From contig NZ_BCSI01000002.1 in the NCBI RefSeq assembly GCF_001570785.1, positions 124,001 to 188,000 of the forward strand: a stretch of DNA of 64,000 bases. Reading direction: 5' to 3'. This document shows, in pieces, positions 21,594-36,368 of this stretch. Every line of letters starts with the position of its first letter. Within the stretch, counting starts at the first letter, position 1. Origin of the DNA: Dermabacter hominis NBRC 106157 (GTDB lineage: Bacteria; Actinomycetota; Actinomycetes; Actinomycetales; Dermabacteraceae). Below the pieces are notes generated by a model. That model worked only from the letters and a program-made list of their open reading frames with translations. It was not told the DNA's origin and did not search any database. A program made the position numbers and the translations under genes.

Positions 21594-23093
21594 GTGAGTG
21601 TGAGCGATCTTCAAACCTTCGGCGGGCATAGCGCGAACGAGCGCGCCGAGGCTTACGAGCGGCTTCGCCGCATGTCCACGTGGCGGCTTCTATCCGCCAC
21701 GAAGGCGCCCGCGACCCTCGCGATTTTGCAGACGGTTTTCCCCGCGGGCGACCGTCGGCTCGACCGCTCCGAGCTCGTGGCCCGCGTGGCGAGCCACCTC
21801 GACCTCCTGCGCGGCGACGAGGATGTTCAGCGCGGCGCTTCGGAGTACGTCGACTCGTGGGTGCGCGAAGGCTATCTCACGAGGCGCGACGATCCCACGA
21901 CGGTCGAAACGACCTTCGAATTGTCGGTGTCCACCGTGGAGGCGATCGGCTTCATTTCGTCCCTCGAAGAGCATCGCCCTACGACGACGGAATCCCGCCT
22001 CACGCTCGTCATGCAGCAGTTTGAGCGGCTTGCCGAGGACACCGAAGGCGATCGAGATGTGCGCCTTCGCGGCCTCCAGCTTCGCCGCGCGCAGATCGAA
22101 AGGGAGATCCAGGCGCTGAGCGAGGGCGAACTCATGCTCCCGCCGGCCGAGCATTCCGCGGAGCGCCTTCGCGATATCCTCCAGGTCGCCGACGAACTGA
22201 GCGGAGACTTCCTTCAGTACCGCGAGGACCTTCGTGCCGTTGACCTGCATCTTCGTGAGCAGATCCTTTCGCCCGAAGGCTCGCGCGGCGAAATCCTCGA
22301 GCAGCTCCTCGCGGGCGATGACCTCCTCGGTCAATCCAAGGTGGGCAAGACCTTCACGGCGTTCTTCAGGATGCTCAACGACCCCAAACAAAACGAGCGA
22401 GCCCAGGACCTCGTGGATCGCCTCCTTTCGCGCGACTTTACGCGCACTCTTACGCGCCGCGAACGCGACCGCCTCGCGAACGTCTTCAGCGACCTGTACG
22501 AGCCCGCGCAAGAGGTCCTCGACGTCAAGACCGAGCTGTATCGCTCGCTTGCGCGTTTTGTGCGCAGCCAGGACTTCCGCCAGCACCGCGTGCTCATGGA
22601 CCTGCTCCAGAGCGCGCAGGGCCTCGCCTTGGCACAGAAGGACGAGGTGAGCCACCGCAAGGCGGAGGCTCTCGACCTCGGGCTTTCGCGTGTCCTGCTC
22701 TCGTCAGTGGCGCAGCACGTGCTCAAAGACCCGACGGACCCCGGCCTCCCGCCGGAGGCTGAGGTCCACGACGCGACAACGCTGAGTGTCGAGGTGCTCG
22801 ACGAGCTGGTGCGCACGAATGACATCGATCTCGTGGGGCTCACATCGTCCGTGAACGAGGTCGTTCACGCGAAAGGTCAGGCGAGTATCGGGCAGGTCGT
22901 TCGCGAACAAGGTGCACCGCAGGGGCTCGCGAGCGTCATTGGCCTCATGTTCCTCGCAACGGCACACGCGAACGCTCGTGAGGGGGACGCGGAGATCGTG
23001 CGCTGGCGCGAAGATTCCCCCGAGGCAGGTGGCACGGACTACGCAGCGCGCGTGCCCACGTTCTTCTTCCTCAGCGAGGTACCGGAGCCATAG
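21594..23093 (+). CDS. jetA: JetA / MksF kleisin-like subunit (DUF3375)
   Basis: 499-aa DUF3375 protein, the MukF-like kleisin of Wadjet (JetABCD) and MksBEF condensin complexes. It would bridge JetC heads and bind JetB on DNA. Recognised from the N-terminal winged-helix region (ERLRRMSTWRLLSATKAPATL), the central helical part (GQSKVGKTFTAFFRMLND) and the C-terminal FLATAHANARE and VPTFFFLSE segment. The jetA-jetB junction is normally tight, but here jetB lies 3.9 kb away with minus-strand genes between. Its 3' end overlaps the convergent membrane-protein gene by 23 bp. The reading frame looks intact. Confidence 0.88.
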   Translation: MSVSDLQTFGGHSANERAEAYERLRRMSTWRLLSATKAPATLAILQTVFPAGDRRLDRSELVARVASHLDLLRGDEDVQRGASEYVDSWVREGYLTRRDDPTTVETTFELSVSTVEAIGFISSLEEHRPTTTESRLTLVMQQFERLAEDTEGDRDVRLRGLQLRRAQIEREIQALSEGELMLPPAEHSAERLRDILQVADELSGDFLQYREDLRAVDLHLREQILSPEGSRGEILEQLLAGDDLLGQSKVGKTFTAFFRMLNDPKQNERAQDLVDRLLSRDFTRTLTRRERDRLANVFSDLYEPAQEVLDVKTELYRSLARFVRSQDFRQHRVLMDLLQSAQGLALAQKDEVSHRKAEALDLGLSRVLLSSVAQHVLKDPTDPGLPPEAEVHDATTLSVEVLDELVRTNDIDLVGLTSSVNEVVHAKGQASIGQVVREQGAPQGLASVIGLMFLATAHANAREGDAEIVRWREDSPEAGGTDYAARVPTFFFLSEVPEP

Positions 23094-23670
23094 TGGGCTC
23101 GACGGGAGGCGCGGCGCTTCGTTGCCGCGCTCCCGCGACGGCGATACCCGCGAGCGGCATCACGAGGAATCGCACCGAATCGATCACGAATGGCACGAAA
23201 ATCAACAGCAGGTTGAACCGGGGAAGTTGGTCGCGAAGGGACTCAGGGTCCGGTGAAAAAGCGACAACCACCGGGGCGAGGACCAGGGCCCAGATTGCCG
23301 CGCTCACGAGTGCGCCTGCGAGAAAAAGGAGCGCCGCGATCGCCCCGAATCGGGTGGCTCCCTTTGAGGGGCAGCGTTTAAGGGCGCGAACGATGGCGGG
23401 GGTGGCCGCGAAGACGAGCACATTCGCCGTCAGCGCCGCCACGACGCACACGAGGACCGAGCGGAAAACGGTATACGTGAGGGTGTTCACGCCTCGGAAG
23501 GCCGGCATCGTGTTCGGCGGGTCCTCGATGAAGATGGGAAACGCCAAGAGGGCGAGTGCCACGCCGGGCGCGAGAACGAGAAGGGCGGCCGCGATAGACG
23601 TCATCAGAACCCACACGCGAGCGGGAGCGCGATGAGTGTCGCCTGTAGACGCGTGAACCGGAGCGATCAT
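23071..23670 (-). CDS. Four-helix membrane protein, family A, copy 1
   Basis: I do not recognise a named family. 199 aa with about four membrane helices. N-terminal RAPARVWVLMTSIAAALLVLAPG is the first helix, and the last is in LLLIFVPFVIDSVRFLVMPLAGIAV, followed by a Pro-rich tail. The pattern of a short N-terminus, a helix, an outside loop of about 35 residues, then three helices with RALKRCPSKGATRFG between, recurs in the genes at 23667 and 26255 and in two broken copies. The stop codon lies inside the jetA 3' end. It is coupled to the upstream copy by an ATGA overlap. Confidence 0.75.
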   Translation of the reverse strand: MIAPVHASTGDTHRAPARVWVLMTSIAAALLVLAPGVALALLAFPIFIEDPPNTMPAFRGVNTLTYTVFRSVLVCVVAALTANVLVFAATPAIVRALKRCPSKGATRFGAIAALLFLAGALVSAAIWALVLAPVVVAFSPDPESLRDQLPRFNLLLIFVPFVIDSVRFLVMPLAGIAVAGARQRSAAPPVEPTMAPVPR

Positions 23671-24248
23671 GGCGCCTCCTCGAGCGCGGAGGGTTTGACG
23701 AGGTACACACGAATGCTCGCGAAGAAGAGATACACGAACCTGGCGATGTCGAGGAGCGGAGGGATGGCGAAGGCGGCGGTCACGAAAGGCACAGCGACGT
23801 TCCGTGCGTTCTCGTTGTTTGAAGTTGCCGCGTCGAGCACATTTATCATCACGAGGTAGAGGACGAGGAGCACGACGAAACTGAGAAACGCGATGACGGG
23901 GCCCACCACGAAGTAGATGAGCGAGCGAATGTTAGTCCGGAAAACCTTGCGTGTGCACCGCTTGAGAGCGGTGAACGCAAAGGGGAACGAGAACAGAGCG
24001 AGAAGGTTCGTGCCGACTAGCCAGCAGACGATGAGGACAGCGAGCGATTTCAGGCTCTCCACGAGCGAGTCGAACTGCTTCGCGTAGGTGCCCACATCAT
24101 TTGGACCCTGAGGCGATGGTGAAGGGGACCCGCTTAACAGGAGAAGAATGATAACCGGCAGTACGGGGATCATGGCCAGTGCGAGACCGCTGAACAGCAT
24201 CCATAGCGCAGCGGGGCGTCGGTGTGAGGGGGGTGCAGGCACCGTCAC
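23667..24248 (-). CDS. Four-helix membrane protein, family A, copy 2
   Basis: 193 aa, same layout as its neighbour: ALWMLFSGLALAMIPVLPVI as first helix, a 40-residue outside loop, a second helix ending FTALKRCTRKVFRTN, then two more helices ending in VPFVTAAFAIPPLLDIARF. The FxxPLLDIxRF-type ending matches copies 1 and 3. Start ATG 24248. Function unknown; divergence from the other copies is high at protein level, so the duplication giving copies 1 and 2 is old. Confidence 0.72.
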   Translation of the reverse strand: MTVPAPPSHRRPAALWMLFSGLALAMIPVLPVIILLLLSGSPSPSPQGPNDVGTYAKQFDSLVESLKSLAVLIVCWLVGTNLLALFSFPFAFTALKRCTRKVFRTNIRSLIYFVVGPVIAFLSFVVLLVLYLVMINVLDAATSNNENARNVAVPFVTAAFAIPPLLDIARFVYLFFASIRVYLVKPSALEEAP

Positions 24249-24307
24249 GCTACCTCCCTGGGCTCATTGAAGGTGACGCACACAACCTTACGGCACGCGC
24301 GCCGGGT

Positions 24308-24448
24308 GGGGGAGGCAGACGGTTACCGCGCTAAAGCAGAGCCGGTGGGGTCAGAGCGGGGTTCAGCGAAGTAAACGATGACCCCCGCAAACGACAGGAC
24401 GGCGAATCGCACAAGATCGATGGCGAGCGGGACAGCGAATGTTCCAAA
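24308..24448. repeat. 141-bp direct repeat, left copy
   Basis: Matches 26240-26380 with three mismatches in 141 bp and no gaps (offset 1932). It contains the last about 42 codons plus roughly 15 bp downstream of the family A gene at 26255-26860. Its end does not coincide with any obvious inverted repeat. Confidence 0.92.
24323..24448 (-). pseudogene. 3' fragment of a family A membrane protein gene
   Basis: Encodes only FGTFAVPLAIDLVRFAVLSF and the following about 20 residues to the stop, nearly identical to the end of the gene at 26255-26860 (two residue changes, YFAEPRSD against YSADPRSD). The 5' end is abruptly lost at 24448, 15 bp from the stop of the gene at 24463. A recent partial duplication, or the scar of a deletion between tandem copies. 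Confidence 0.85.
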
Positions 24449-24462
24449 CTGGAATCCCGCCC

Positions 24463-24987
24463 TTAGGCGATCTGGTTCTTCGCCGCCTTGGTCCCGCGCA
24501 TTCCGGCAACGGTGAGCACGATGCACAGAATCAGAATGACGATGCTGGTGAGGATCGCGAAGACTGCGCTCCCACCGTTTCCTGCTATGACTCTTTGAAC
24601 CACGACGTTGATGAGGCCCGTGGCGCCAGTCAGCAGCGTGGTGATCGTGGCAATGATGCCCATCGTGCGCGCCTTCTTGCGCCCCACGATGGCGAGCACC
24701 ACCGATGAGATGAAGGCGAGGAAAGAGACGCCGATGAACAGCAGGACAAGAAGTCCCGTGATCATGATGGCGACCTCGAAAGCGTCGCGGTTGTCTCCCG
24801 CGAGGGCTGCGCCGCCGTAGCCGATGGCCTGGCCGAGAAGCCACAGGAGCGTCATGATGCCGCCGAGGATGGCGGTGGCGAGGCCCGCGAACTTGGCAGG
24901 CTTATTTTCCGTGGGGAACCCCTGGCCGGGGTGGGCGGGGGCGCCGAAGTTTTGGGGGCCCTGTGCTGCGTGCGGGGGAATGGACAT
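24463..24987 (-). CDS. Four-helix membrane protein, family B, copy 1
   Basis: 174 aa. A Pro/Gly/Gln-rich cytosolic N-terminus of about 30 residues precedes four hydrophobic helices: FAGLATAILGGIMTLLWLLG, ITGLLVLLFIGVSFLAFISS, IATITTLLTGATGLINVVV and AILTSIVILILCIVLTVAGM. The basic loop VGRKKARTMG lies between helices 2 and 3. It resembles small actinobacterial DUF4190/DUF4064-like membrane proteins in layout, but I cannot name it. ATG 24987 with AGGA upstream. Confidence 0.75.
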   Translation of the reverse strand: MSIPPHAAQGPQNFGAPAHPGQGFPTENKPAKFAGLATAILGGIMTLLWLLGQAIGYGGAALAGDNRDAFEVAIMITGLLVLLFIGVSFLAFISSVVLAIVGRKKARTMGIIATITTLLTGATGLINVVVQRVIAGNGGSAVFAILTSIVILILCIVLTVAGMRGTKAAKNQIA

Positions 24988-25037
24988 GGAATGGGTCCTA
25001 TCTAGGCTCAGTGGATTGTGTGGGTATGGGATCGAGG

Positions 25038-25568
25038 TCAGATGGAGTGGCGGATGGCCATGCGGCCGCAGAAGATTGCGGTGATGCCAAAGAGAAGGGG
25101 GAACAATGCTGCCCCGATCAGCATGGGCTTGATCTCCAATCCGATGGCCATGGACATGCAGGCGATGAAGCCGGCTGCCGCAATCACCATGGCGATGAGG
25201 GTGATGATTCCAGCCGTGCGCGAGCGGCCGCGGCCAACGAACAGGAGGATGAGCGCGGGCCAGAAGGCGAGGGGGCCGGTACCCATCGCGGCGAGGAGAC
25301 CGATGATCCCCGGGATGACGTATGCGGGCAGTTCGTCAGCGCCCCCTTTGGGCAGCATGTTCGACGCATCAAGTGCTCCGGCGGCCGTAGTGGTGAGGGT
25401 GTAGAGGAGCCAGCCGAGGGTGAAAATCGAGGCGAGAACGATGAGGATCCAGCCGAGGACTCGGGCGGCCTTTCCGGTGGGTGCTGCAGTGGGTGTGGGA
25501 TACGGGGCGGGGCCGGGGTAATGGCCGGGGTACCCGTAACCATTGGGGGCCGAAGAGTGCTGCGTCAT
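25038..25568 (-). CDS. Four-helix membrane protein, family B, copy 2
   Basis: 176 aa from ATG 25568, which has AAAGGA 6 nt upstream; a frame reaching 25673 is not needed. Tyr/Pro/Gly-rich N-terminus (GYGYPGHYPGPAPYPTPT) then four helices, with the basic loop VGRGRSRTAG after helix 2 exactly where its neighbour has VGRKKARTMG. This shared motif makes the two genes paralogues. Role unknown. Confidence 0.75.
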   Translation of the reverse strand: MTQHSSAPNGYGYPGHYPGPAPYPTPTAAPTGKAARVLGWILIVLASIFTLGWLLYTLTTTAAGALDASNMLPKGGADELPAYVIPGIIGLLAAMGTGPLAFWPALILLFVGRGRSRTAGIITLIAMVIAAAGFIACMSMAIGLEIKPMLIGAALFPLLFGITAIFCGRMAIRHSI

Positions 25569-25679
25569 CGTGTTCCTTTTGCAGGGAAGAAGGCGTGTCG
25601 GGAAAAGCGTTATGTATGCAACTGCAAAAAGCGTGTCAGGGGTGTGACCGGGCGCGCAAGCTCGTTCACTCAAATATCA
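25569..25679. other. Gap between family B gene and family A remnant
   Basis: Contains the upstream region of the gene ending at 25038. No RNA or terminator seen. Confidence 0.3.
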
Positions 25680-26215
25680 TTTTGGGCAGGCTCGGTGGCA
25701 TCGGGCCGCGGGGCTCAGGGGAGACGGTGTGACTCTAGCATGAACGCCCGCCATGACGGCGAAGGCGATGCTAGAGAGTGGGAATAGTGAATAGATGGGG
25801 AGCACGAGGGGTAGGGCCAAGAACGGCAAGAGGACGAATGCCCAAGTGAACTCGGCGACGACGAATATCAGGAACGGGGTCAATCCCACGCTGAGAGCGC
25901 GAGGAATGATGTGCATAGAAAAGGCAAAGGTGGCGTGCTTTCGAGCCTGCCCCTTGGGGGCAATGATGACGAGGACGATCAGGGGGCGATAGTGGCGGCA
26001 ACGAGCACCGCGAGCGTTGCTGCATTGACCGCTAACGCGATGTTACTTGCTTGGATCCGCTCCGCTGCGTGCTCCGCCGTTTCGGGGGCGAGTGGGTCAC
26101 CCAGCAAGCGAAATATAGTGAATATCCGCGACCAACGCGACGAAGTACGTGAACGTGAGTAGCCCGGGAAGCAGTGCCGCTGCGCGGGTGCCGCGGCTTC
26201 TCCTCGCGGTCACCG
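25680..26215 (-). pseudogene. Frameshifted remnant of a family A membrane protein
   Basis: Reading the minus strand, membrane-protein-like coding switches frame several times. LLPGLLTFTYFVALVADIHY runs into a stop, DPLAPETAEHAAERIQASNI continues to LAVLVAATIAP in another frame, and a third carries LSVGLTPFLIFVVAEFTWAF and PLSSIAFAVMAGVHA. Together they give the helix-loop-helix order of the intact family A genes. No single frame covers it and no start is convincing. Alternatively this is noncoding DNA with chance hydrophobic frames. Confidence 0.55.
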
Positions 26216-26239
26216 GCGGATTCAGGGGCGGCAGCGCAG

Positions 26240-26380
26240 GGGGGAGGCAGACGGTTACCGCGCTAAAGCAGAGCCGGTGGGGTCAGAGCGTGGATCAGCG
26301 GAGTAAACGATGACCCCCGCAAACGACAGGACGGCGAATCGCACAAGATCGATGGCGAGCGGGACAGCGAATGTTCCAAA
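26240..26380. repeat. 141-bp direct repeat, right copy
   Basis: Partner of 24308-24448. This copy lies within an intact gene and its downstream flank, so it is the likely parent. Confidence 0.92.
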
Positions 26381-26860
26381 GACGAGCAAAGCTCTGAGCC
26401 CTTCCCACTCGGCCCTCACCGCGCCTGTGGCGGGATTGCTGGAGGCCTCGGTCGGGAGGCTCAAGGAGAGGGCGATCATGGCGGCCGCGCTCAGAACGGC
26501 GAGGAGCGGTCCGAGGATGAAGACGATAATCGCCGTGAGAGCAAAACCGATGCGCCCCGCACCGTCGCACCGCGTGAGTGCCGCGATCGCAAACGGGACC
26601 GCAGTAAGCCCGACGAAGTTCCCAGCTCCGAAGAACACGCCGAACACGAAGAAAAACGCGAAGGCGCGCGAGACGAGTTCGTCGAGCCCGGCCAGCGGGC
26701 TGCTGTCCCCAGGAGACTCGGAGGCGACAGGCACGAGCCACATCGCGCCAGGGGCGAGGAGCGGCCCCAAAACGACACAGACGAGCGCGACCGTCGCAAG
26801 AATGACCCAAACCCTCGCGGGGCTGCGATGGTTGTTGGCTAAAAGCGAGGGCAGGGACAC
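26255..26860 (-). CDS. Four-helix membrane protein, family A, copy 3
   Basis: 201 aa from GTG 26860, with AAGGAG 5 nt upstream. RSPARVWVILATVALVCVVLGPL closely matches the first helix of copy 1 (RAPARVWVLMTSIAAALLVL). A loop of about 30 residues and helices including FGVFFGAGNFVGLTAVPFAI and FGTFAVPLAIDLVRFAVLSF follow. Its 3' end is duplicated at 24323. It is divergent from jetB, leaving 117 bp for both promoters. Function unknown. Confidence 0.75.
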   Translation of the reverse strand: MSLPSLLANNHRSPARVWVILATVALVCVVLGPLLAPGAMWLVPVASESPGDSSPLAGLDELVSRAFAFFFVFGVFFGAGNFVGLTAVPFAIAALTRCDGAGRIGFALTAIIVFILGPLLAVLSAAAMIALSLSLPTEASSNPATGAVRAEWEGLRALLVFGTFAVPLAIDLVRFAVLSFAGVIVYSADPRSDPTGSALAR

Positions 26861-26940
26861 GGCGGCTCCTTACAGTGAGGTGAGCGGACGTAGTCAACCT
26901 ATGAACTCAAACGCAGGTCAGATAGAGGGCGGGTGAAAAT

Positions 26941-26949
26941 TGTGGATAA
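26941..26949 (-). promoter_or_regulatory. Perfect DnaA-box-like 9-mer upstream of jetB
   Basis: The minus strand reads TTATCCACA, the consensus DnaA box, 29 bp before the jetB start and overlapping the position of a possible -35 (TTGTGG at 26940). Only one box is seen here, so it is not an origin; chance occurrence cannot be excluded. Confidence 0.4.
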
Positions 26950-26964
26950 CTCTTGTGCGGCCGG

Positions 26965-26970
26965 TAGGCT
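26965..26970 (+). promoter_or_regulatory. Putative -10 box of jetB (leaderless)
   Basis: TAGGCT 7 nt before GTG 26978 with no ribosome site. TTGTGG at 26940 is a possible -35 at a long 19-nt spacing. It supports separate transcription of jetBC from jetA. Confidence 0.45.
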
Positions 26971-26977
26971 TGAGGGC

Positions 26978-27787
26978 GTGGAAAACGAGAAGGGTCCGCG
27001 CATGCGTGAACACGAGGAAACCGCCGCCGACGGTCGCACTGCTCCGGCGGCAACGCCGAGCACTGACCGCGACGAATGGGCGCTCGCAAGCGACGACGAA
27101 GACCTCACCTACGCCGGCTCCACCGGGGGAGCGCTCGTCGAGGACTCCCGCCGCGTTCTCGTTGCCCTGCTTCAAGGGCCCTACCTGGACGGTCGACGCG
27201 ACCCCCAGCGCTACGGCCAGCTCCTTCGCGATCGCGCGCAGATCGAGAACCGCCTCGCCGACATGTTCCTGGAACTTGTTCTCGACGATGACGCGCAGGT
27301 CGCATTCGTGCGCCAGAGCGAGGACGACCCCGATGCCCCAAAGCTTCTGCGCCGTCTCACAGGCCTCAACCGGCTCGACACCGTGCTCCTCCTCGTCCTG
27401 CGCCAGCACTTGCTCACGCAGTCCTCGCGCGGGCAGCGCGCGGTGGTGAGTGAGATGGAGCTCGTCTCGACCCTTTCGACATACCGCCGCACCGATTCCA
27501 CGGACGAGGCCGGCTTTACGAAAGACATCCGTAGCTCGATCGCGAAGCTTCAACGCGCCGGCCTGCTCGAGGAACAGGGAGACAGCTACGAAGTCTCGCC
27601 CGTCCTCAAGCTCATGATTACTCCGGACACCGCGCGCGAGTTCACCGACCTCTATATGCGCGCTGGTGACGACGTGGGCGGCGCCGCCGATGCCCTTGAT
27701 CGCGAGGCAAAAGACGACACCTTGGGGGAGGCCGACGCCCGCCCCGATGACACGAGCGTCGCATCCGAAAGCGAGGCCACCGCATGA
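26978..27787 (+). CDS. jetB: JetB / MksE subunit (DUF4194)
   Basis: DUF4194 protein, the MukE-like tandem winged-helix partner that binds the kleisin JetA and DNA in Wadjet/Mks complexes. 269 aa from GTG 26978. The conserved core runs from SRRVLVALLQGPYLDGRRDP through LNRLDTVLLLVLRQHLLTQS to KLQRAGLLEEQGDSYEVSPV. Low-complexity, acidic tails of about 40-50 residues lie on both ends. The jetC ATG overlaps its stop (ATGA), so the two subunits are translationally coupled. Confidence 0.85.
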   Translation: MENEKGPRMREHEETAADGRTAPAATPSTDRDEWALASDDEDLTYAGSTGGALVEDSRRVLVALLQGPYLDGRRDPQRYGQLLRDRAQIENRLADMFLELVLDDDAQVAFVRQSEDDPDAPKLLRRLTGLNRLDTVLLLVLRQHLLTQSSRGQRAVVSEMELVSTLSTYRRTDSTDEAGFTKDIRSSIAKLQRAGLLEEQGDSYEVSPVLKLMITPDTAREFTDLYMRAGDDVGGAADALDREAKDDTLGEADARPDDTSVASESEATA

Positions 27788-30700
27788 AAGCCCAGGACGT
27801 CTTCGACGGGATGGATGACCCCTCGCTTGAGCCGGCAGGCGTCGGCCCCGGTGCCGCGCACAAGCCCGCTACCGACCCCGAGCACCCGCATCCGGGCCAG
27901 TGGCGTCTCAATCACGTGCAGCTCAGCAACTGGGGCACGTTCCACGGGACACACGACCTCGCGATCAGCTCGAAGGGCTTCTTCCTGACGGGCGGTCCCG
28001 GTACGGGCAAGTCCACGCTCCTGGACGCCGTGAGCGCGCTCCTCACGCCACCGCGTGCGCTGCACTTCAACGCGGCGGCGTCCGACGCCGGGCCCCGCCA
28101 AACAAAGAACCGACGGACTGTCGCAAGCTACGTTCGCGGCGCGTGGGCCATGCATTACGACGCCGCCACCGGTGAGTTCAGCCAGGAAGTGCTGCGCGAC
28201 AAGACCACCCTCAGTGTGGTGACGCTCCGTTACGGCAACGGTCAAGGGGACACCCTCCAGCTCAGCCGCATGTTCCTCCTCCAGGCAGGCCACACGTCGG
28301 ACTCGGACGTCAAGAGCCTCTACGTGATTTCGTCGAAGCCGTACGACGTTTCTGACCTGCGCCCGTTCGTGGGCACCACGATCGAGGGCCGCGAGCTCGA
28401 GAAGACCCTCGAGGGCACCGAGACTTTCCGCCAGTTCCGCGAGTACCGCGCGCGCTTCTCGCAGATCCTCGGCATTCCCGACGAGAAAGCGCTGGGGCTC
28501 CTGCACAAGATCCAGTCCGCGAAGGAACTTGGCGACGTCAACGCCCTGCTGCGTGACTACATGCTCGACGAGCCACGCACATTCGACCTCGCCGATCAGG
28601 CCCTCGCGAACTTCCAGAACCTCTCCGAGGTGTACGACGCCCTCGTGACGGCCCGCAAGCAGCGTGACACCCTGCTGGTGTTGAGGGAGGCCGACGCCAC
28701 CTGGCGCGAGGCTCGTTCCCGCGGCAGCGAGTTGGTGGACCGCCGCAATGACATCGACACCTTCTCCGCGCGTCACCTCGTATCCCTGCTCGCCGCAGAG
28801 AAGGAACGCCTCGTGCGAGACCAGGATCGCCTGCGCGCGCAACGAAACCGCCTCTCCCAGGACGTATCCGAGGCTCGCGAGGACCTCGCGCAGCTCAAGG
28901 AACAGCGCAAGAACGCCGGTGGCGGCGAGATTGACGACTGGAAGAAGCAGATCGCGGGCCTCGAGGTGGAGCGCGAGCGCCGGCGCGAGCGCGCTACGGA
29001 GTTCTCGGGCCAGCTGGCCCTCCTCGATCTCGGCACGCCCTCCAACGAAGAGACATTCCTGAGCATCCAGCGCGACGTCCAGGGCCTGCGGAGCGCGCTC
29101 GAGGAGGCGGAGAAGAACGAAGCGCAGGTGCAATGGGAGGCCGAGGCGAAGGTTCGCGAGTGGGCCCGCACCCTTGAGGACACCCGCCAGGAGGTCGCCT
29201 CGCTCACCTCGCGCGCCTCGAACCTTCATTCCGATGACGTGGCGCTGCGCGACCTTCTCGCCGAGCGCACGGGAGTGTCTCCGAGCGATCTCCCCTTCGC
29301 CGCTGAGCTCCTCCAGGTGCGTCAGGGTGATCAAGAGTGGACGGCCGCCGCGGAGCAGGCGCTGCGAGGCCTCGCGCGCTCGATCCTCGTCCCGGATCGC
29401 ATCTACCGCACCTTTGCTCGTGAGATCGACGGTATGAAGCTCCGCCGCCGCGTGAGCTACAACCGCATCAACACGAACATCAAGACCGCCCCCAAGAAGC
29501 TCGACCCCCGCGCCCTCGGCACGAAGATCGAGATCAAGGACGGCGAGTTCCACGCCTGGCTCTCCGCCGAGATCTCGAGCCGCATGGACTACCTGTGCGC
29601 CGAGAGCCTCGAGGAGTTCACGAAGTACCCCCGCGCGGTTCTGCGAAGCGGCCAGATCAAGCACTCGGCTACGCGGCACGAGAAGAACGCCGACAGGCAG
29701 ATCAACGACCGCTCCAACTGGGTGCTCGGTTTCGATAACCGCGCGAAGCGCGCCGTCTTCGAGCAGGAGCGCACCCGCGCGGAGCAGGCCCTCTTTGAGG
29801 CCCAGGCGCGCCGCCGCGACCTCGAGAAGGAAGCGACCCAGCGCCGCCACAAGCTCTTCGCGCTCCAGGCGATCCAGGCCGTGACGTGGGATGACGTGGA
29901 CGCCGCGAGCGTGGCGAGGCGCATCGCGAACCTGCAGGACATGGTGCGCGCCGCCGAGGACGGTTCGAGCGCCCTCACCCAGATTGCCCGCCAGATCGAC
30001 CAGGTGGAGATGTCGATCAACGAGAGCGACGAGGAACTGCTCGAGGTAGTGGGTCAGCTCGGCCGCGTCAACGAGCAGCTCGATCAGATCAGTGAACGCC
30101 ACCTCCAGGCCGAGGCGCAAATCGAGAACCGCACCCTCTCGGAAGAGACGGTGGCCGACCTCGGGGCACGCTTCCGTGCGATCGCCCCGAACCTCCTCCT
30201 GAGCAACATCGACCAGGTCACGAAGGACGCCTCCGCGACCCTCGATGCGGAGCTCATGACGCTCCAGAAGCAGACCTCGCGCGCCGAAGAGGACATGCGC
30301 ACCGCCATGCGCGAGTTCTCCCGCCAGTGGCCCGCCGACGGCGCGGACGTGGACACCTCTCTCGAGGCAGCTCCCGAATACCTCGCCATCCTCACGCGGA
30401 TCGAGCAGGAGAAGCTCCCGGATGTTGAGGATCGCTTCTTCGACTTCTTCACGGGCAACACCCTCGGTGACGTGCAGGCCCTCGCCACGGCGATCGCTCG
30501 CGAGCCCGCCCAGATCAAGAAGCGTCTTGCGAAGATCAACGAGCTCCTCGCCCAGGTGGAGTTCCACCAGGGCCGCTTCCTCCAGCTCTCCATGCGGCCC
30601 GTGCACCTCGCCGCGCTCGACGAGTTCAAGCAGGCCCTGGGCCAGGCCGTGAACTCGACGCTCGAAAACGACCTCACGCTAGACCGTGACATGGCAGAGG

Positions 30701-31182
30701 AGCGCTTCCTCGCCCTGCAGTACCTCATGGGCATCATCACGAAGGCCCGCACGAACGACGACCTCGCCTCGCGCGCGATCCTCGACGTGCGCCGCCACGT
30801 TCGCTTCCACGCGGAAGAGGTCAATACCGAGGGCGAGGTTGTGCACGCCCACCAGTCCGGCGGCCCCCTGTCGGGTGGCCAGAACGAACGCCTGACGACG
30901 TTCTGTCTCGCCGCGGCACTGCGCTACCAGCTCGCCGGGACCGGCGTGGATGTGCCCAGGTACGCGCCCATCATCATCGACGAGGCGTTCAGCAAGGGTG
31001 CGGGCAAGTTCATTACCGCCGCTATGGAATCCTTCCGCCACTTCGGTTTCCAGGTGGTCCTCGCGAATCCTGGAAAGAATCCGCAGGCGCTCGCGCCGTT
31101 CATCGGCGGCGTAGGCGTCGTCTCGATCCGCGAGGACCGCTATTCCTCCGTGAGCCTGATCGATTTCATTCCGGCTGCGTAG
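27784..31182 (+). CDS. jetC: JetC / MksB SMC-like ATPase
   Basis: 1132-aa SMC-family motor of a Wadjet/MksBEF complex; it would extrude DNA loops. Walker A is GGPGTGKS at residues 70-77. Long coiled-coil arms occupy about 300-460 and 660-900. A hinge-like domain lies in between (about 490-640, containing [12 protein letters not shown]). The ABC signature [11 protein letters not shown] is near 1028 and Walker [12 protein letters not shown] near 1062. SbcC/RecN are excluded by the DUF4194 and DUF3375 partners. No jetD follows: the next gene is convergent and overlaps the 3' end by 17 bp. Confidence 0.9.
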
Positions 31183-32569
31183 CGCTTGCGGTGAGCTCCT
31201 CGAGGGCACCGAGGGGGATCGTGAGCCACTCCGGTCGGTTTTGCGATTCGTACACGGCCTCGTAGGCGGCCTTGTCGAGCTCGAACACGCGCAAGAGAAC
31301 GCGCAGATCCTCCGGGTCGCCCTCACCCCCGCGCGCGGAACGCTCGGCGAGATACGCCTCGAGGAAGGCCTCCCGCGCCTCGCGTGCCCATGCGCGTGCA
31401 TCGATGCCCTCATTCAGTTCAACGTAGGCCGCTGCGTAGTCGATGCTGCGCAGGATCCCCGCGACGTCCCGGCAGGGAGAATCGACCTTCACGCGCTCCG
31501 CCATGGGGCGCAGCGGTTCGCCCTCGAAGTCGAGAAACACCCAACCCTCGCTCGGTGAATTGAGGACTTGCCCGAGATGGAGATCGCCGTGGATTCGTTG
31601 GAACGGCGGCCACGAGATCCTCAAGGCCCGCATGTAGAGAGCGTTTGCGGCGTCGGTGAATTCCTCGAGTGCCGGGAGCGTCTCGGCGTGGTGTGCGAAA
31701 CGACGCTTCATCGACTCGAGGGTGAGCGCGAGCGTATTGGTGCTCACGCGATCGGTGGGCAGGACGCGCGCGAGATCCGTGTGGATCTGTGCGAGGGCGG
31801 TGCCTAGGTCCGACGCCTGCTCGGAAAAATCGATGCCTTGGGCGGCAGCGATGAGGGCTTCGCGCCAGGCATCTTGCACATCCGGAAGGAATCGGTTGAG
31901 CAAGGCGACGTCGGAGCTGCCCAGAGCGTCGACACCGCGCACGTACCCGAAGAACTGCGGGATCTGCGTGCTGCCCTCGGATTGGAGTGCCTCTTGAAGT
32001 TCGGCGTCGGGGTTTGTGCCGTCATGGAGATGGCGGAAAAGCTTGAGGATGTACTCGCGGCCGCTTTCGGTATGAATGATGAGGGACGTGTTCGACTGCT
32101 CGCCCACGAACCTCTCGGTTGCCGTGATCGCCTTGAGATCATCCTGTACACGCTGGGCGGTTTCAGCGATCAGCATGGGTTCAAGCGAAAGCCCCTCGCC
32201 CGATGCTCCCTCGAAGAGGGCGCGCGCGAGAAGCGCGCGAGCGCGGTCAATCCCGGTGGCGTCATACACGTTGTACTGCCCCGCTGGAGTGTCGACCTGC
32301 GTGATGAGACTGTCGAGTTCACCATCGTCGACCCGGCCGTCCTTGTTCCAGGCCACGGGCAAAGCAAAGCGCACGCCATCACCGGCACCGAGAGCGACAA
32401 ACGACACCACGAGGTGATCATCCTCGGCAAGACGAGTCCAGCCGGCAATCTGCAGCTTGGGAGCGGCACCGTACGCACCGCTGTACCAGCGCTGTCCCAT
32501 GATGAAACGCGAGGCGTCCTCGAGGAACTTTTCGCGGCGAAAGTGATCGGAAAACACGATGCTGAGCAT
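31166..32569 (-). CDS. Maltokinase-like aminoglycoside-phosphotransferase-fold kinase
   Basis: Similar to Mak1/Pep2 maltokinases, which phosphorylate maltose to maltose-1-phosphate with ATP for GlgE glycogen/glucan synthesis. 467 aa, the usual size. The N-terminal cap includes [10 protein letters not shown]. The kinase core has [11 protein letters not shown] near residue 327, with the catalytic Asp, and then [20 protein letters not shown] with the metal-binding Asp. [17 protein letters not shown] follows, typical of the family. treS or glgE is not adjacent, so the substrate is assumed from similarity only. Confidence 0.85.
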
Positions 32570-32608: not shown

Positions 32609-32662
32609 AACGCCGCTGGTAGTGTGGCGGGTGAATTCGAGGCATTCGTGGGAAGGAGAATC

Positions 32663-34645
32663 GTGCGAAAGGAGTCGATTCTCCGCCGCACCCTGGCGCG
32701 CACCGCAGCGTGCGCGCTCGTGCTTGCGGCAACCGTCGGACCAGCCCTAGCTCCCGTGCCCCACGCCCCTGGCGCCGCATCCCTCATTCCCGCGGCGCAC
32801 GCAGTCGGCGAAGACGGCCCCTTTACGCTCCCCACGAATCCGAACGCGCTTACGCAAGAAGCGACGCTCGGCGATGAAGGAATTTTCGACCTTTTCCTGA
32901 TGGTGTCCTCGGACGACCTCGCGACTCTCGACAGCGACTCGATGAGGCTCCTTGGGACGGCCGACTCTCGTGAAGCAAAGCCCACGCGCGGAGGTAAGAA
33001 GCTCTCCGTCGAAGGGGTAGGGGACTGGACGATTCAGGACACGCGAGTGAGGTTTACGCCGGCGAACCCCAAAGCAGGTGGGTCCCATAGCGTGCAGTTC
33101 TCGGTGCGCTCGAAGGCAGGTTATGAATCCGCTCCCGTGACTCTCACCGTCACCTACCCGGGAATTTCAAACGTGAGCACACGAGCCTCTGAGGGAAAGA
33201 AAGTCACGATCCCTCTTTCGCTTGAAGGCACGCAAGTCAAACCCTCCTCTCTCGGGTTCTCGCTCGAAGGGCTCCCCGCGGGGAGCACGCTCGTGGACGG
33301 TGGCGCGCGGCTCATCGTCCCCGACGAGGGAACGTGGCTCCTCACAACCGACGGCCAGCCGAGTGTCACCTTTACTCCTCGACGCGAAAGGCTCGGCGCA
33401 CAACCGCGGCCCGTCACCGTCGAGGGGACAGACATGAAGGGCAACTCGATCGCCCCGGGCACGGTGACCGTGAATACGCCTTCGATCAGGGACATCACGC
33501 GCGCAGCGGGCTACGGCCAACCGGTCGTTTTCGAACTCGCGAGCGCCACGTCACACGTGGATCCTGCGACGCTTCAATTAGCCCCCTTCGGTGGCGAAAC
33601 CTCCTACTACACTTCCGGTGACGGTCTTTCGGTGACCGTTGCCGACCAGGGCACGTGGGTTCTGAACCGAGCAGCACAAACGCTCACCTTCACGCCCTTG
33701 AGTGACCGGGTGCGAGACGTGACGCCAATGGGAGTGACGGCAGCTGACAGCGAAGGCAACACATCCTCGGTTGCCCCCATGAACGTGGGCTACCCCCAAG
33801 TGGGTGCGCGCTACACGGCCGTGAAGTGGGGGCAGGCTGCAATGTTCACCCCGCTCGACGGTTCCCTCAACGTCCAGCCCTCAACATTCGCCTTCAGCGA
33901 CCACGACATGCCCGCGGGAACGAGCTTTTCCGGTGATCGGAAGACCATGCGAGTACCGAACGAGGGAGTGTGGGCATTCGATGCAAACGCGCGCACAGTG
34001 ACGTTCACCCCCGACAGCTCGCTACGCGACTCGCCGCATGTCGCCACCTTTACGATCGACAGCGCTCTCGCTTCCAACACGACGAGCGGAACTCTCCACG
34101 CGCAATACGCGAGCGCGGTTTCCACGGCACGCGACGACGAAGCCCTCTCCAACAGCCGAGTCAACTCAGTGACCATCGACGTCCTCGGGAACGACACCCC
34201 CGCGAGCCCCGGCCAAGGGTTCGATTCCGAGACGCTCGTGCTCCACAGCGCGAGCGCGACCAACATCCAAGAACTCGTCGCAGGCTCAGGGCGCCGCCTT
34301 GAAATCCCCGAAGAAGGCGTATTCGAGGTGACGAGCGCGGGCGGTGTGCGCTTTACGCCCGCCGCCACATTCGTGGGGCGAACAACCCCCATCGAGTACA
34401 CGGTCGAGGACGCTTCCGGGCTGCGCACGAGCGCTCACATCGTGGTCGACGTTGAACCTCTCGTCCCCGGGTCCAGCTCCGACCGGCGCGAAGCCGGACT
34501 CAGCGCGATCTTCGGGCGCCTCATGCCCTCCTCGAGTGCGACCTTTGCAGTCTTCGCGACGAGCACGGCGCTCCTGATCTTCACGGGAATCGTGTCCCTG
34601 TGGGTCGGCGCGCAGATGCGCCACGACCGTAAAGGCGACCGCTAG
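32663..34645 (+). CDS. Secreted CshA-type repeat surface protein with C-terminal membrane anchor
   Basis: 660 aa from GTG 32663 (AAGGAG 4 nt upstream). An N-terminal signal peptide ([20 protein letters not shown], likely cut after AHA) leads to a purely extracellular chain. At least five CshA-fibril-like repeats of about 100 residues follow, each with a core such as [12 protein letters not shown] then VTFTP. A single C-terminal helix ([20 protein letters not shown]) with a basic tail anchors it. There is no LPXTG motif. CshA repeats form adhesive fibrils in streptococci and actinobacteria; adhesion is inferred. Confidence 0.82.
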
Positions 34646-34651
34646 AACCCC

Positions 34652-36142
34652 TCAGTCGAGGATCTTGCGGGACTCGACGCCGAGATGCGCAAGCAGAGGC
34701 TCGTGCGCGCGAATCCGCTCGCGGAGCTCCTCCACCTCGATCGACGATCCCCACGCGTGCTGTGCGATCGCCACGAGACGAGGAAAGAGCATGTACTCGA
34801 GGTGGCGAGCAGTCGGAATGTACTGGCCGAATGCCGTTGCCTCGATGCCGAGCACGAGTGCTTCGTGCTCCTTTTTCAGTCGCTTGGGGAGGGGCTCTGC
34901 TTTGAGGACGTCCTCGAGGCTCAACTCGGGACGCGCGCCCACGGGCTCGTTCCGGCCCTGCACGCGGTCAAGGCCGAGAATCGATTCGGGCGCTGCAACC
35001 GTCTGAAAGCCGCGCGAAGCCGCAGATTTGACGCCCTTCGAGTCGCCTCCTGCAAGCACAATCGCGTCGTCGGGAATTCGTACGAGCCTCGACGAATCCC
35101 ATACCGCGAGGCGCTTGCCCTTATCGCGTAGTACCTCGCCCGCGAACGTCATAAAGCGGCCAAGGATCTCGCTTTCGCGCGAATAGCCCCACTCCTCCCG
35201 GCGCGTGCGCGCCTCGGCAGAGTGCTCCCACTCCGTCAGCGGGGCATCCTCGCCACCGACGTGTACGAATGGGGAATCAAAAATATCGGCGACCTGCTCG
35301 AGTACGTCACGCACAAACTGGAAGGCCGCTTCCGATGTGCCAAGCACGTGGTCGCTCACGCCCCACGTCTCGCGCACGAGCAGCTGGCGTTCAGGGTAGT
35401 TCCCGAGAGATGGGTACGCGGCGATCGCCGCTTGGGCGTGACCCGGAAGATTCACGCCCGGCACGACGGTCACGCCTCGCGAACGCGCGTACTGCACAAG
35501 CTCACGCAGTTCCTCCTGCGTGTAGAAACCGCCGTGGCGATCCTCCGCGAATGTGTCCTCACCCTCGAACGTCGGGGTTCCCTCGACAGTGCGCTCGCGC
35601 CATGCGCCAACTTCGGTGAGCCGCGGGTATCCACTCACCTCGAAGCGCCAGCCCTGATCGTCGGTGAGATTCATATGCAGGATGTTGAACCGGTACACGG
35701 CCATCACCGTGATGAGCCGCTTGAGATCCTCAACGGGCAGGAAGTGCCGGGCTGGATCAACGAGCAGGCCGCGCCATGCGAACGCAGGAGAATCACTCAG
35801 GGTAAGCGCGGGGATGCGGTAGGTCGCTTCCGACGGTTGCTCGTGACCCACCGTTGCCGCTGCGGCGAGTTGGGACCGCACTGCCGAAAGGTGGACGATC
35901 TGCGCGAACGCATTGCGACCATCGGCGAGCGCCGCCTCGCTACCGGCAGTAATCGATGCGCCGTTCTTGTGGATCGCGATCGAGAAATCGGTGCGCGGCA
36001 GGTCCTTATTTACGCCGACCGTGACCTCGCCGAAGGGGTCTGACGTCAGCCAGTCCCCGGCTGGAGAATCCCCCCAGCGCACCGACACCGGCTCGGGGAT
36101 GAGGGGGAGGGGAGCGGTATTGAGCTCAGATTGCGTGGACAT
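34652..36142 (-). CDS. GH20-family protein with altered active site
   Basis: 496 aa from ATG 36142 (CAGGAG upstream). It has the beta-N-acetylhexosaminidase layout: an N-terminal GH20b-like domain and a TIM barrel with FAWRGLLVDPARHFLPVED and MNLTDDQGWRFEVSGYP. The key catalytic places differ. HVGGED stands where GH20 enzymes have HxGGDE, VPGVNLPGH where PEIDxPGH is usual, and EATAFGQY where LWTE-type Trp-Glu is expected. The end FPRLVAIAQHAW lacks the usual AE. No signal peptide, so cytoplasmic. Either a different specificity or a non-catalytic relative. Confidence 0.85.
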   Translation of the reverse strand: MSTQSELNTAPLPLIPEPVSVRWGDSPAGDWLTSDPFGEVTVGVNKDLPRTDFSIAIHKNGASITAGSEAALADGRNAFAQIVHLSAVRSQLAAAATVGHEQPSEATYRIPALTLSDSPAFAWRGLLVDPARHFLPVEDLKRLITVMAVYRFNILHMNLTDDQGWRFEVSGYPRLTEVGAWRERTVEGTPTFEGEDTFAEDRHGGFYTQEELRELVQYARSRGVTVVPGVNLPGHAQAAIAAYPSLGNYPERQLLVRETWGVSDHVLGTSEAAFQFVRDVLEQVADIFDSPFVHVGGEDAPLTEWEHSAEARTRREEWGYSRESEILGRFMTFAGEVLRDKGKRLAVWDSSRLVRIPDDAIVLAGGDSKGVKSAASRGFQTVAAPESILGLDRVQGRNEPVGARPELSLEDVLKAEPLPKRLKKEHEALVLGIEATAFGQYIPTARHLEYMLFPRLVAIAQHAWGSSIEVEELRERIRAHEPLLAHLGVESRKILD

Positions 36143-36368
36143 GGCACTCCTGGGGTAAATCGGCGGCCTTGCGCGATGTTGCACAAAGATACAGTTCAAC
36201 CCTGTCACGCGGGGATAGGTGCACGCTGGAAAAGGGATGGCCGATGCCTACCGGGAGGTGTCGGACAGAAAAACGGGCAGCCCCGAGGGGCTGCCCGCAT
36301 GAACTGATCGGTGTGGCCTCGATCCTCTTCCCACGACGCAGAGCGTCAGGATCGAACCCCTCTCCCGA
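36143..36368. other. Intergenic region between GH20 and NlpC genes
   Basis: Contains the GH20 upstream region and a strong terminator hairpin for the NlpC gene. No ORF. Confidence 0.5.
36264..36297 (-). terminator. Rho-independent terminator of the NlpC/P60 gene
   Basis: An 11-bp perfect stem (CGGGCAGCCCC paired with GGGGCTGCCCG, two-base loop, 36274-36297), followed on the minus strand by TTTTTCTGT. It lies about 70 bp after the NlpC stop. Confidence 0.85.

Follow-up and report, generated by a model that had tools for sequence, protein, structure and literature searches.

A GH20 protein of Dermabacter that probably now binds a sugar or catalyses a different reaction

Results and discussion

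The locus

The window is the whole stretch of DNA analysed here, 64,000 nucleotides from the genome of Dermabacter hominis NBRC 106157 (genome G000, 2.16 Mb), and its features are collected in Table 1. The gene considered here is an intact open reading frame on the reverse strand, which starts with an ATG at 36142, shortly after an AGGAG stretch, and encodes a protein of 496 residues. Between it and the upstream NlpC/P60 gene there is a terminator-like hairpin (a pattern match only), which suggests separate transcription of the gene.

The surroundings of the gene are shared widely. In all 11 of the other genomes checked, the orthologue is accompanied by a JetC-like gene, a CshA-repeat protein and a phosphodiesterase; an NlpC/P60 gene was found in 10 of them and a maltokinase-like gene in nine. 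The CshA-type repeat protein, which by eye has a C-terminal hydrophobic stretch, lies next to GH20 at the 11 loci examined. Since the Wadjet-like genes, the CshA-repeat, NlpC/P60 and phosphodiesterase genes and a PBP gene flank intact orthologues too, they give no clue to a new role, ligand or partner. A link to a neighbouring glucosamine kinase was considered and dropped: that gene matches the models for branching enzyme (E 4.7e-57) and maltokinase (2.8e-56) better than that for glucosamine kinase (3.8e-29), all of these scores being below the curated cut-offs, and the gene also adjoins intact orthologues.

The Wadjet-like genes are of type I. No match to JetD_C (PF09983) was found anywhere in the genome, which is 99.97% complete, and the set may be a nuclease-free JetABC/MksBEF-type complex, or JetD may be too divergent. 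Between jetA and jetB there are about 3.9 kb of short open reading frames of about 200 residues, some of them mutually similar and with no clear Pfam family; the matches to jetA and jetB in G045 are about 110 bases apart.

Table 1. Features of the window. Residue numbers are those of the GH20 protein; equivalent residues of SpHEX and VhGlcNAcase are given where available.
Feature	Position	Strand	Basis
Degenerate GH20 protein, 496 aa	34652..36142	-	Pfam, AlphaFold2 model, structure search
E298-D299, replacing catalytic Asp-Glu (SpHEX D313-E314, VhGlcNAcase D437-E438)	35246..35251	-	alignments to 3rcn and relatives
G229, V230, N231 (PGVN), replacing E-I-D of PEID; in G002 the E is retained and D is S	35450..35458	-	alignment
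S350, replacing invariant Glu of WDE	35093..35095	-	alignment
G365-G366, replacing W-R; W365 is the pocket Trp (SpHEX W361, VhGlcNAcase W505)	35045..35050	-	alignment
G390, replacing pocket Tyr (SpHEX Y393, VhGlcNAcase Y530)	34973..34975	-	alignment
F438, G439, Q440, replacing W-(T/S)-E (SpHEX W442, E444; VhGlcNAcase W582, E584)	34823..34831	-	alignment
R132, kept (SpHEX R162, VhGlcNAcase R274, binder of O3 and O4)	35747..35749	-	alignment; contacts from available part of PMC8098473
H235 of PGH, kept (VhGlcNAcase H373)	35438..35440	-	alignment
W348, kept pocket Trp (SpHEX W344, VhGlcNAcase W487)	35099..35101	-	alignment
D392, kept (SpHEX D395, VhGlcNAcase D532, binder of O6)	34967..34969	-	alignment; contacts from available part of PMC8098473
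Terminator-like hairpin	36273..36298	-	pattern match
CshA-type repeat protein	32624..34645		
Maltokinase-like gene	31166..32569		model scores
Type I Wadjet-like genes	21594..31182		PADLOC models
JetA	21594..23093		PADLOC models
JetB	26933..27787		PADLOC models
JetC	27784..31182		PADLOC models
Short open reading frames between jetA and jetB	23071..26936		

Family and fold

The only Pfam family identified in the protein is Glyco_hydro_20 (PF00728, E 2.6e-83), which covers residues 121–465. AlphaFold2, run with a 35-row alignment, gives a confident model with a TIM-barrel fold (mean pLDDT 91.1, pTM 0.92). The solved structures that VIA places closest to this model are GH20 proteins, and Foldseek agrees: 6q63 (Bacteroides BT0459) has a Z score of 53.2 and an rmsd of 2.4 over 463 aligned residues, and 3rcn (Arthrobacter aurescens) a Z score of 51.9 and an rmsd of 2.5 over 462. 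With these and with Akkermansia Am0868 (7cbn), all β-N-acetylhexosaminidases, the likeness extends over the whole fold (Z 52–53, rmsd 2.4–3.0). In fold and in sequence, the protein belongs to CAZy family GH20. No hydrophobic N-terminal stretch or obvious signal peptide was seen by eye, and it is therefore expected to be cytosolic.

The active site

The original prediction held that the catalytic motifs of this protein are altered while the motifs of the fold remain. Alignment with 3rcn and with relatives bears this out: HVGGED stands where HxGGDE is expected, PEID has become PGVN, and LWTE lacks its Trp-Glu and reads AFGQ, while DDQGWR and PGH are still present, as in the hexosaminidases of solved structure. 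There are no gaps through HxGG against either 3rcn or the relatives, GGED falls directly under GGDE, and the idea that some other nearby Asp-Glu pair fills the catalytic position is rejected. Three losses had gone unremarked, namely W365 and Y390, both now Gly, and the Glu of WDE, which reads WDS. A change from AE to AQ at residue 461 is present as described, but is not diagnostic, because an intact paralogue of the same genome also has AQ.

Residues were paired with those of SpHEX and VhGlcNAcase using the contacts given in the available part of PMC8098473, together with alignment by motif and spacing. According to that part of the paper, the sugar in subsite −1 of VhGlcNAcase is contacted by R274 (O3 and O4), D532 (O6) and E584 (O4), and D437 contacts the acetamido group. 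The Dermabacter protein has both the Arg of DxxRH and the Asp of Y-x-D that recognise the O3/O4/O6 edge, and the relay between D161/D162 (D303/D304 in VhGlcNAcase) and H235 is intact. The aromatic pocket of subsite −1, formed in GH20 enzymes by a Tyr and three Trp, is by contrast largely gone: the Tyr is replaced by Gly, one Trp by Gly or Thr and a second by Phe, and only W348 is retained. On this pairing, the protein would retain the O3/O4/O6 side of the site, except for E440, but neither the side that faces the acetamido group nor the Glu acid.

Published GH20 structures supply 12 pocket positions, and the protein departs from the canonical residue at six of them. Among the 119 positions that are invariant in 37 intact rows of the family, the window protein is changed at six of 11 pocket positions and at 14 of the 108 others (Fisher p 0.003); the pocket enrichment for L004 under the 44-row set has a p of 0.083. 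This enrichment (p 0.003), together with the recurrence in four species described below, excludes chance as the source of the changes.

The likely effect on activity can be judged from mutants. In VhGlcNAcase, kcat/Km falls 5159-fold in D437N, 848-fold in D437A, 281-fold in E438Q and 354-fold in E438A (Table 4 of PMC8098473, available in part), and E584A costs only about threefold; the available part of PMC4752478 reports a matching loss on mutating the catalytic pair. Kinetics of Glu-to-Asp mutants of GH20 enzymes were not found in open-licence PMC papers, and such a change may keep some activity. It is nevertheless predicted that the window protein has lost N-acetylhexosaminidase activity.

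Distribution and ancestry

Four species of Dermabacter were sampled (G000 to G003). All four have the degenerate gene, with an open frame, and the G001 orthologue is 89% identical to the window protein. The original prediction had proposed a search for orthologues with the same changes; the losses are indeed shared by all four species, but the exact Glu-Asp pair is found in three (G000, G001 and G003), the fourth (G002) having Gln-Asp. The adjacent Asp-Glu of GH20 enzymes is thus missing after HxGG in every one. In all four, moreover, residue 390 is Gly, residue 438 Phe, residue 299 Asp and residue 365 either Gly or Thr; residue 440 varies (Q, E, Q, D), and R132, H235, W348 and D392 are retained throughout. 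The inverted pair of the original prediction is therefore real in the window, but it is not the functional unit: what is consistent across Dermabacter, as read from the aligned residues, is the absence of both the acetamido clamp and the proton-donating Glu acid, and not an exact swap.

These comparisons make it very improbable that the protein is an ordinary N-acetylhexosaminidase which tolerates a swapped acidic pair. Its fold is standard, and both residues of the pair are acidic in three of the four species, but Y390, W365 and W438 are lost as well, G002 has Q-D, and the published Ala, Asn and Gln mutants of the pair drop 281- to 5159-fold (PMC8098473, available part).

Elsewhere the site is well conserved. 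A GH20 match is found in 45 of the 47 genomes of the family, and the family alignment has 54 rows: four from Dermabacter, 44 usable intact rows, one from G026 and five fragments. The counts of invariance leave out the fragments (three L113, one L110 and one L114) and the G026 row (L016), which is reported separately below. D298, E299, W365, Y390, W438 and E440 are kept in all 44 usable intact rows. One of the fragmented loci, L113 (G031:C1:2907007-2908602), is a GH20 gene split over frames, by sequencing error or by true disruption. In the order, GH20 was found in 45 of the 99 genomes drawn. One locus was checked from each of 29 further genomes, six of them family members already counted; the 23 proteins from other families all keep D298, E299, W365 and Y390, with Phe at 438 in one and Glu at 161 in two. 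The degenerate pattern H[V/I/M]GGED.P, applied to two draws of 396 genomes from the order and the phylum (11 genomes in common), gave 41 distinct matching loci. Of these, only two, one in the window and one in G003, lie within GH20 frames; variants that lack Pro at +2 escape the pattern, G001 was outside the draw, and the Q-D species cannot match.

The Dermabacter gene occupies the chromosomal position at which an intact gene lies elsewhere in the family. The positional orthologues of other genera are about 50% identical to it, and their canonical site is complete in all usable rows except G026, whereas that of Dermabacter is degenerate. In the tree, the four degenerate rows group together (starred, 100/99) and the intact L034 adjoins them (98/95); L007 and L008 are long-branched, and their join may be false. 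From the tree grouping and the shared position, it would appear that an intact ancestral gene was altered on the Dermabacter stem.

Every Dermabacter genome carries, elsewhere, one or more intact GH20 genes. The paralogue loci in G002 (C6) and G003 (C1) contain none of the window's neighbour genes. In G000, the locus L056 (C17, 483-8594) brings together an intact GH20, a GH38 alpha-mannosidase, a phosphodiesterase-like gene and a solute-binding protein. This is a possible glycan-use locus and would suit glycan catabolism.

A further change is seen in G026 (L016 and L125), where the catalytic pair is N-E and the pocket Tyr is replaced by Ser. Only these two of the 119 invariant positions are changed, with the codons AAC (acetamido Asp to Asn) and TCC (Tyr to Ser). 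The protein is about 72% identical to its intact kin and 54% to the window protein and, being closer to the intact kin, would represent a loss separate from that in Dermabacter, as far as the tree shows. No second GH20-like match was found in G026, where this GH20 stands alone. With no more than these two residues gone, G026 suggests that reading of the acetamido group can be lost first.

Selection

In the three pairwise comparisons of G000, G001 and G003 (496 codons), the degenerate gene has dN/dS values of 0.065, 0.070 and 0.072, with dS of 0.71–1.01; those of the intact paralogue, over whole open frames, are similar, at 0.068–0.099. The test of selection on the altered site rests on the six changed pocket positions that come from published contacts. 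At these, G000 differs from G001 at one (residue 440) and from G003 at none, where a neutral simulation leads one to expect about five differences; the corresponding shares of simulations are 0.0001 and 0.0 with dS as measured, and 0.0031 and 0.0001 with a dS of 0.7. The same six codons do carry synonymous changes. A larger set of 18 positions was chosen after the changes were known, and is thus biased to positions uniform in the three species; it is not unusual when compared with random sets of 18 positions of the same protein (shares 0.37 and 0.13). Constraint on the altered site is thus similar to that on the remainder of the protein, and is not shown to be stronger.

This constraint is strong evidence against decay and against a freely drifting pocket. 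A decaying pseudogene is scarcely credible: the intact GH20 beside a GH38 mannosidase in the same genome could have relieved selection, but the dN/dS values and the open frames in four species contradict it. The original prediction had favoured a new activity or a binding role over random decay, and this is supported in so far as the gene is present in all four Dermabacter species, has a low dN/dS and is under purifying selection at the altered positions. It might alternatively be the fold or the surface that is selected, in a moonlighting or structural role, the pocket being functionless. Such a role would suit a gene that is nearly universal in the family, and whose active site has been lost twice, apparently independently, with the frame still open. 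We consider it unlikely, given that the altered pocket residues are conserved in three species despite near-saturated synonymous sites, and that R132, H235, W348 and D392 are lost in none of the four.

A possible function

On the basis of these observations, we hypothesise that selection maintains the product as a cytosolic pseudo-hexosaminidase, which would bind a glycan but not hydrolyse it; we would give this reading about an even chance. A vertically inherited GH20 of the Dermabacteraceae would have lost the residues for substrate-assisted hydrolysis on the Dermabacter stem, and selection would then have kept the protein for a different cytosolic task. The half of the pocket that remains (R132, D161/D162, H235, W348 and D392) looks able to grip a terminal sugar by its O3/O4/O6 edge. 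The rebuilt half (E298, D299, G365, G390 and F438) corresponds to what would formerly have been the clamp on the 2-acetamido group and the site of leaving-group protonation. The ligand may thus be a glycan or a sugar signal, probably one without an acetamido group or whose acetamido group is not used, and it would not be turned over. Two features expected of a pseudoenzyme are seen: the fold is retained with the catalytic residues gone (by alignment, model and structure search), and the protein is under selection across the species. Against this, the invariant D299 and the intact D161/D162-H235 relay would suit a surviving acid/base catalyst, and we also count the variation at residue 440 against it, although the equivalent E584A change has so modest an effect in VhGlcNAcase.

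The main rival, possible but rather doubtful, is a re-tooled glycosidase, in which D299, fed by the Asp-His relay, and E298 would cleave a glycoside lacking the 2-acetamido group, without an oxazoline. The conservation of D299 in all four orthologues, the retention of R132, H235, D161/D162, D392 and W348, and the purifying selection on the altered sites would all be consistent with this. On the other hand, the Gln at 298 in G002 leaves no conserved second carboxylate there, and the pocket residue W365 is gone. To our knowledge, moreover, every GH20 enzyme is a 2-acetamido glycosidase in which that group participates. We suggest, as a tentative generalisation, that the GH20 scaffold has on two separate occasions, in Dermabacter and in G026, stopped recognising the 2-acetamido group, and serves as a cytosolic sensor (a 'hex-lectin') or as a D299 glycosidase acting on non-acetamido sugars.

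Relation to known proteins

Pseudoenzymes are a known kind of protein, and the GH18 chi-lectins are examples with a glycosidase fold. The chi-lectins and heparanase 2 come from other families and are mostly eukaryotic proteins. They resemble the Dermabacter protein in keeping the fold of a glycosidase while catalysis is lost, this loss being predicted in Dermabacter; the Dermabacter protein differs in being a GH20 protein, bacterial and without an apparent signal peptide. For heparanase 2, the available text of PMC12406646 states that it 'lacks catalytic activity'. Within GH20, changes to the same catalytic pair have been engineered in Serratia chitobiase E540D (1c7t, with bound substrate according to its title), SpHEX D313N (1m04) and VhGlcNAcase D437A (6ezt). 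These are single laboratory changes, whereas in Dermabacter at least six pocket positions have been altered in nature.

Open-licence PMC papers were searched for precedents. No GH20 pseudoenzyme or GH20 equivalent of a chi-lectin was found there, the broader searches being judged by title, nor was any GH20 sugar sensor or non-acetamido GH20 glycosidase. The only match there for Dermabacter together with hexosaminidase concerns, by its title, a Cutibacterium mannosidase, and none of the Dermabacter genome papers in the same collection is, by title, on this gene.

Conclusions

The protein analysed here is a GH20 protein that, in Dermabacter, probably now serves to bind a sugar or to catalyse another reaction. 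For annotation, the active site of any PF00728 match in Dermabacter should be inspected before it is called a hexosaminidase. The family offers a natural series on a single tree, from the intact site of most members through the loss of two residues in G026 to the full loss in Dermabacter, in which a glycosidase can be followed as it becomes something else. If the Dermabacter protein does bind sugar, GH20 would have a bacterial equivalent of the chi-lectins.
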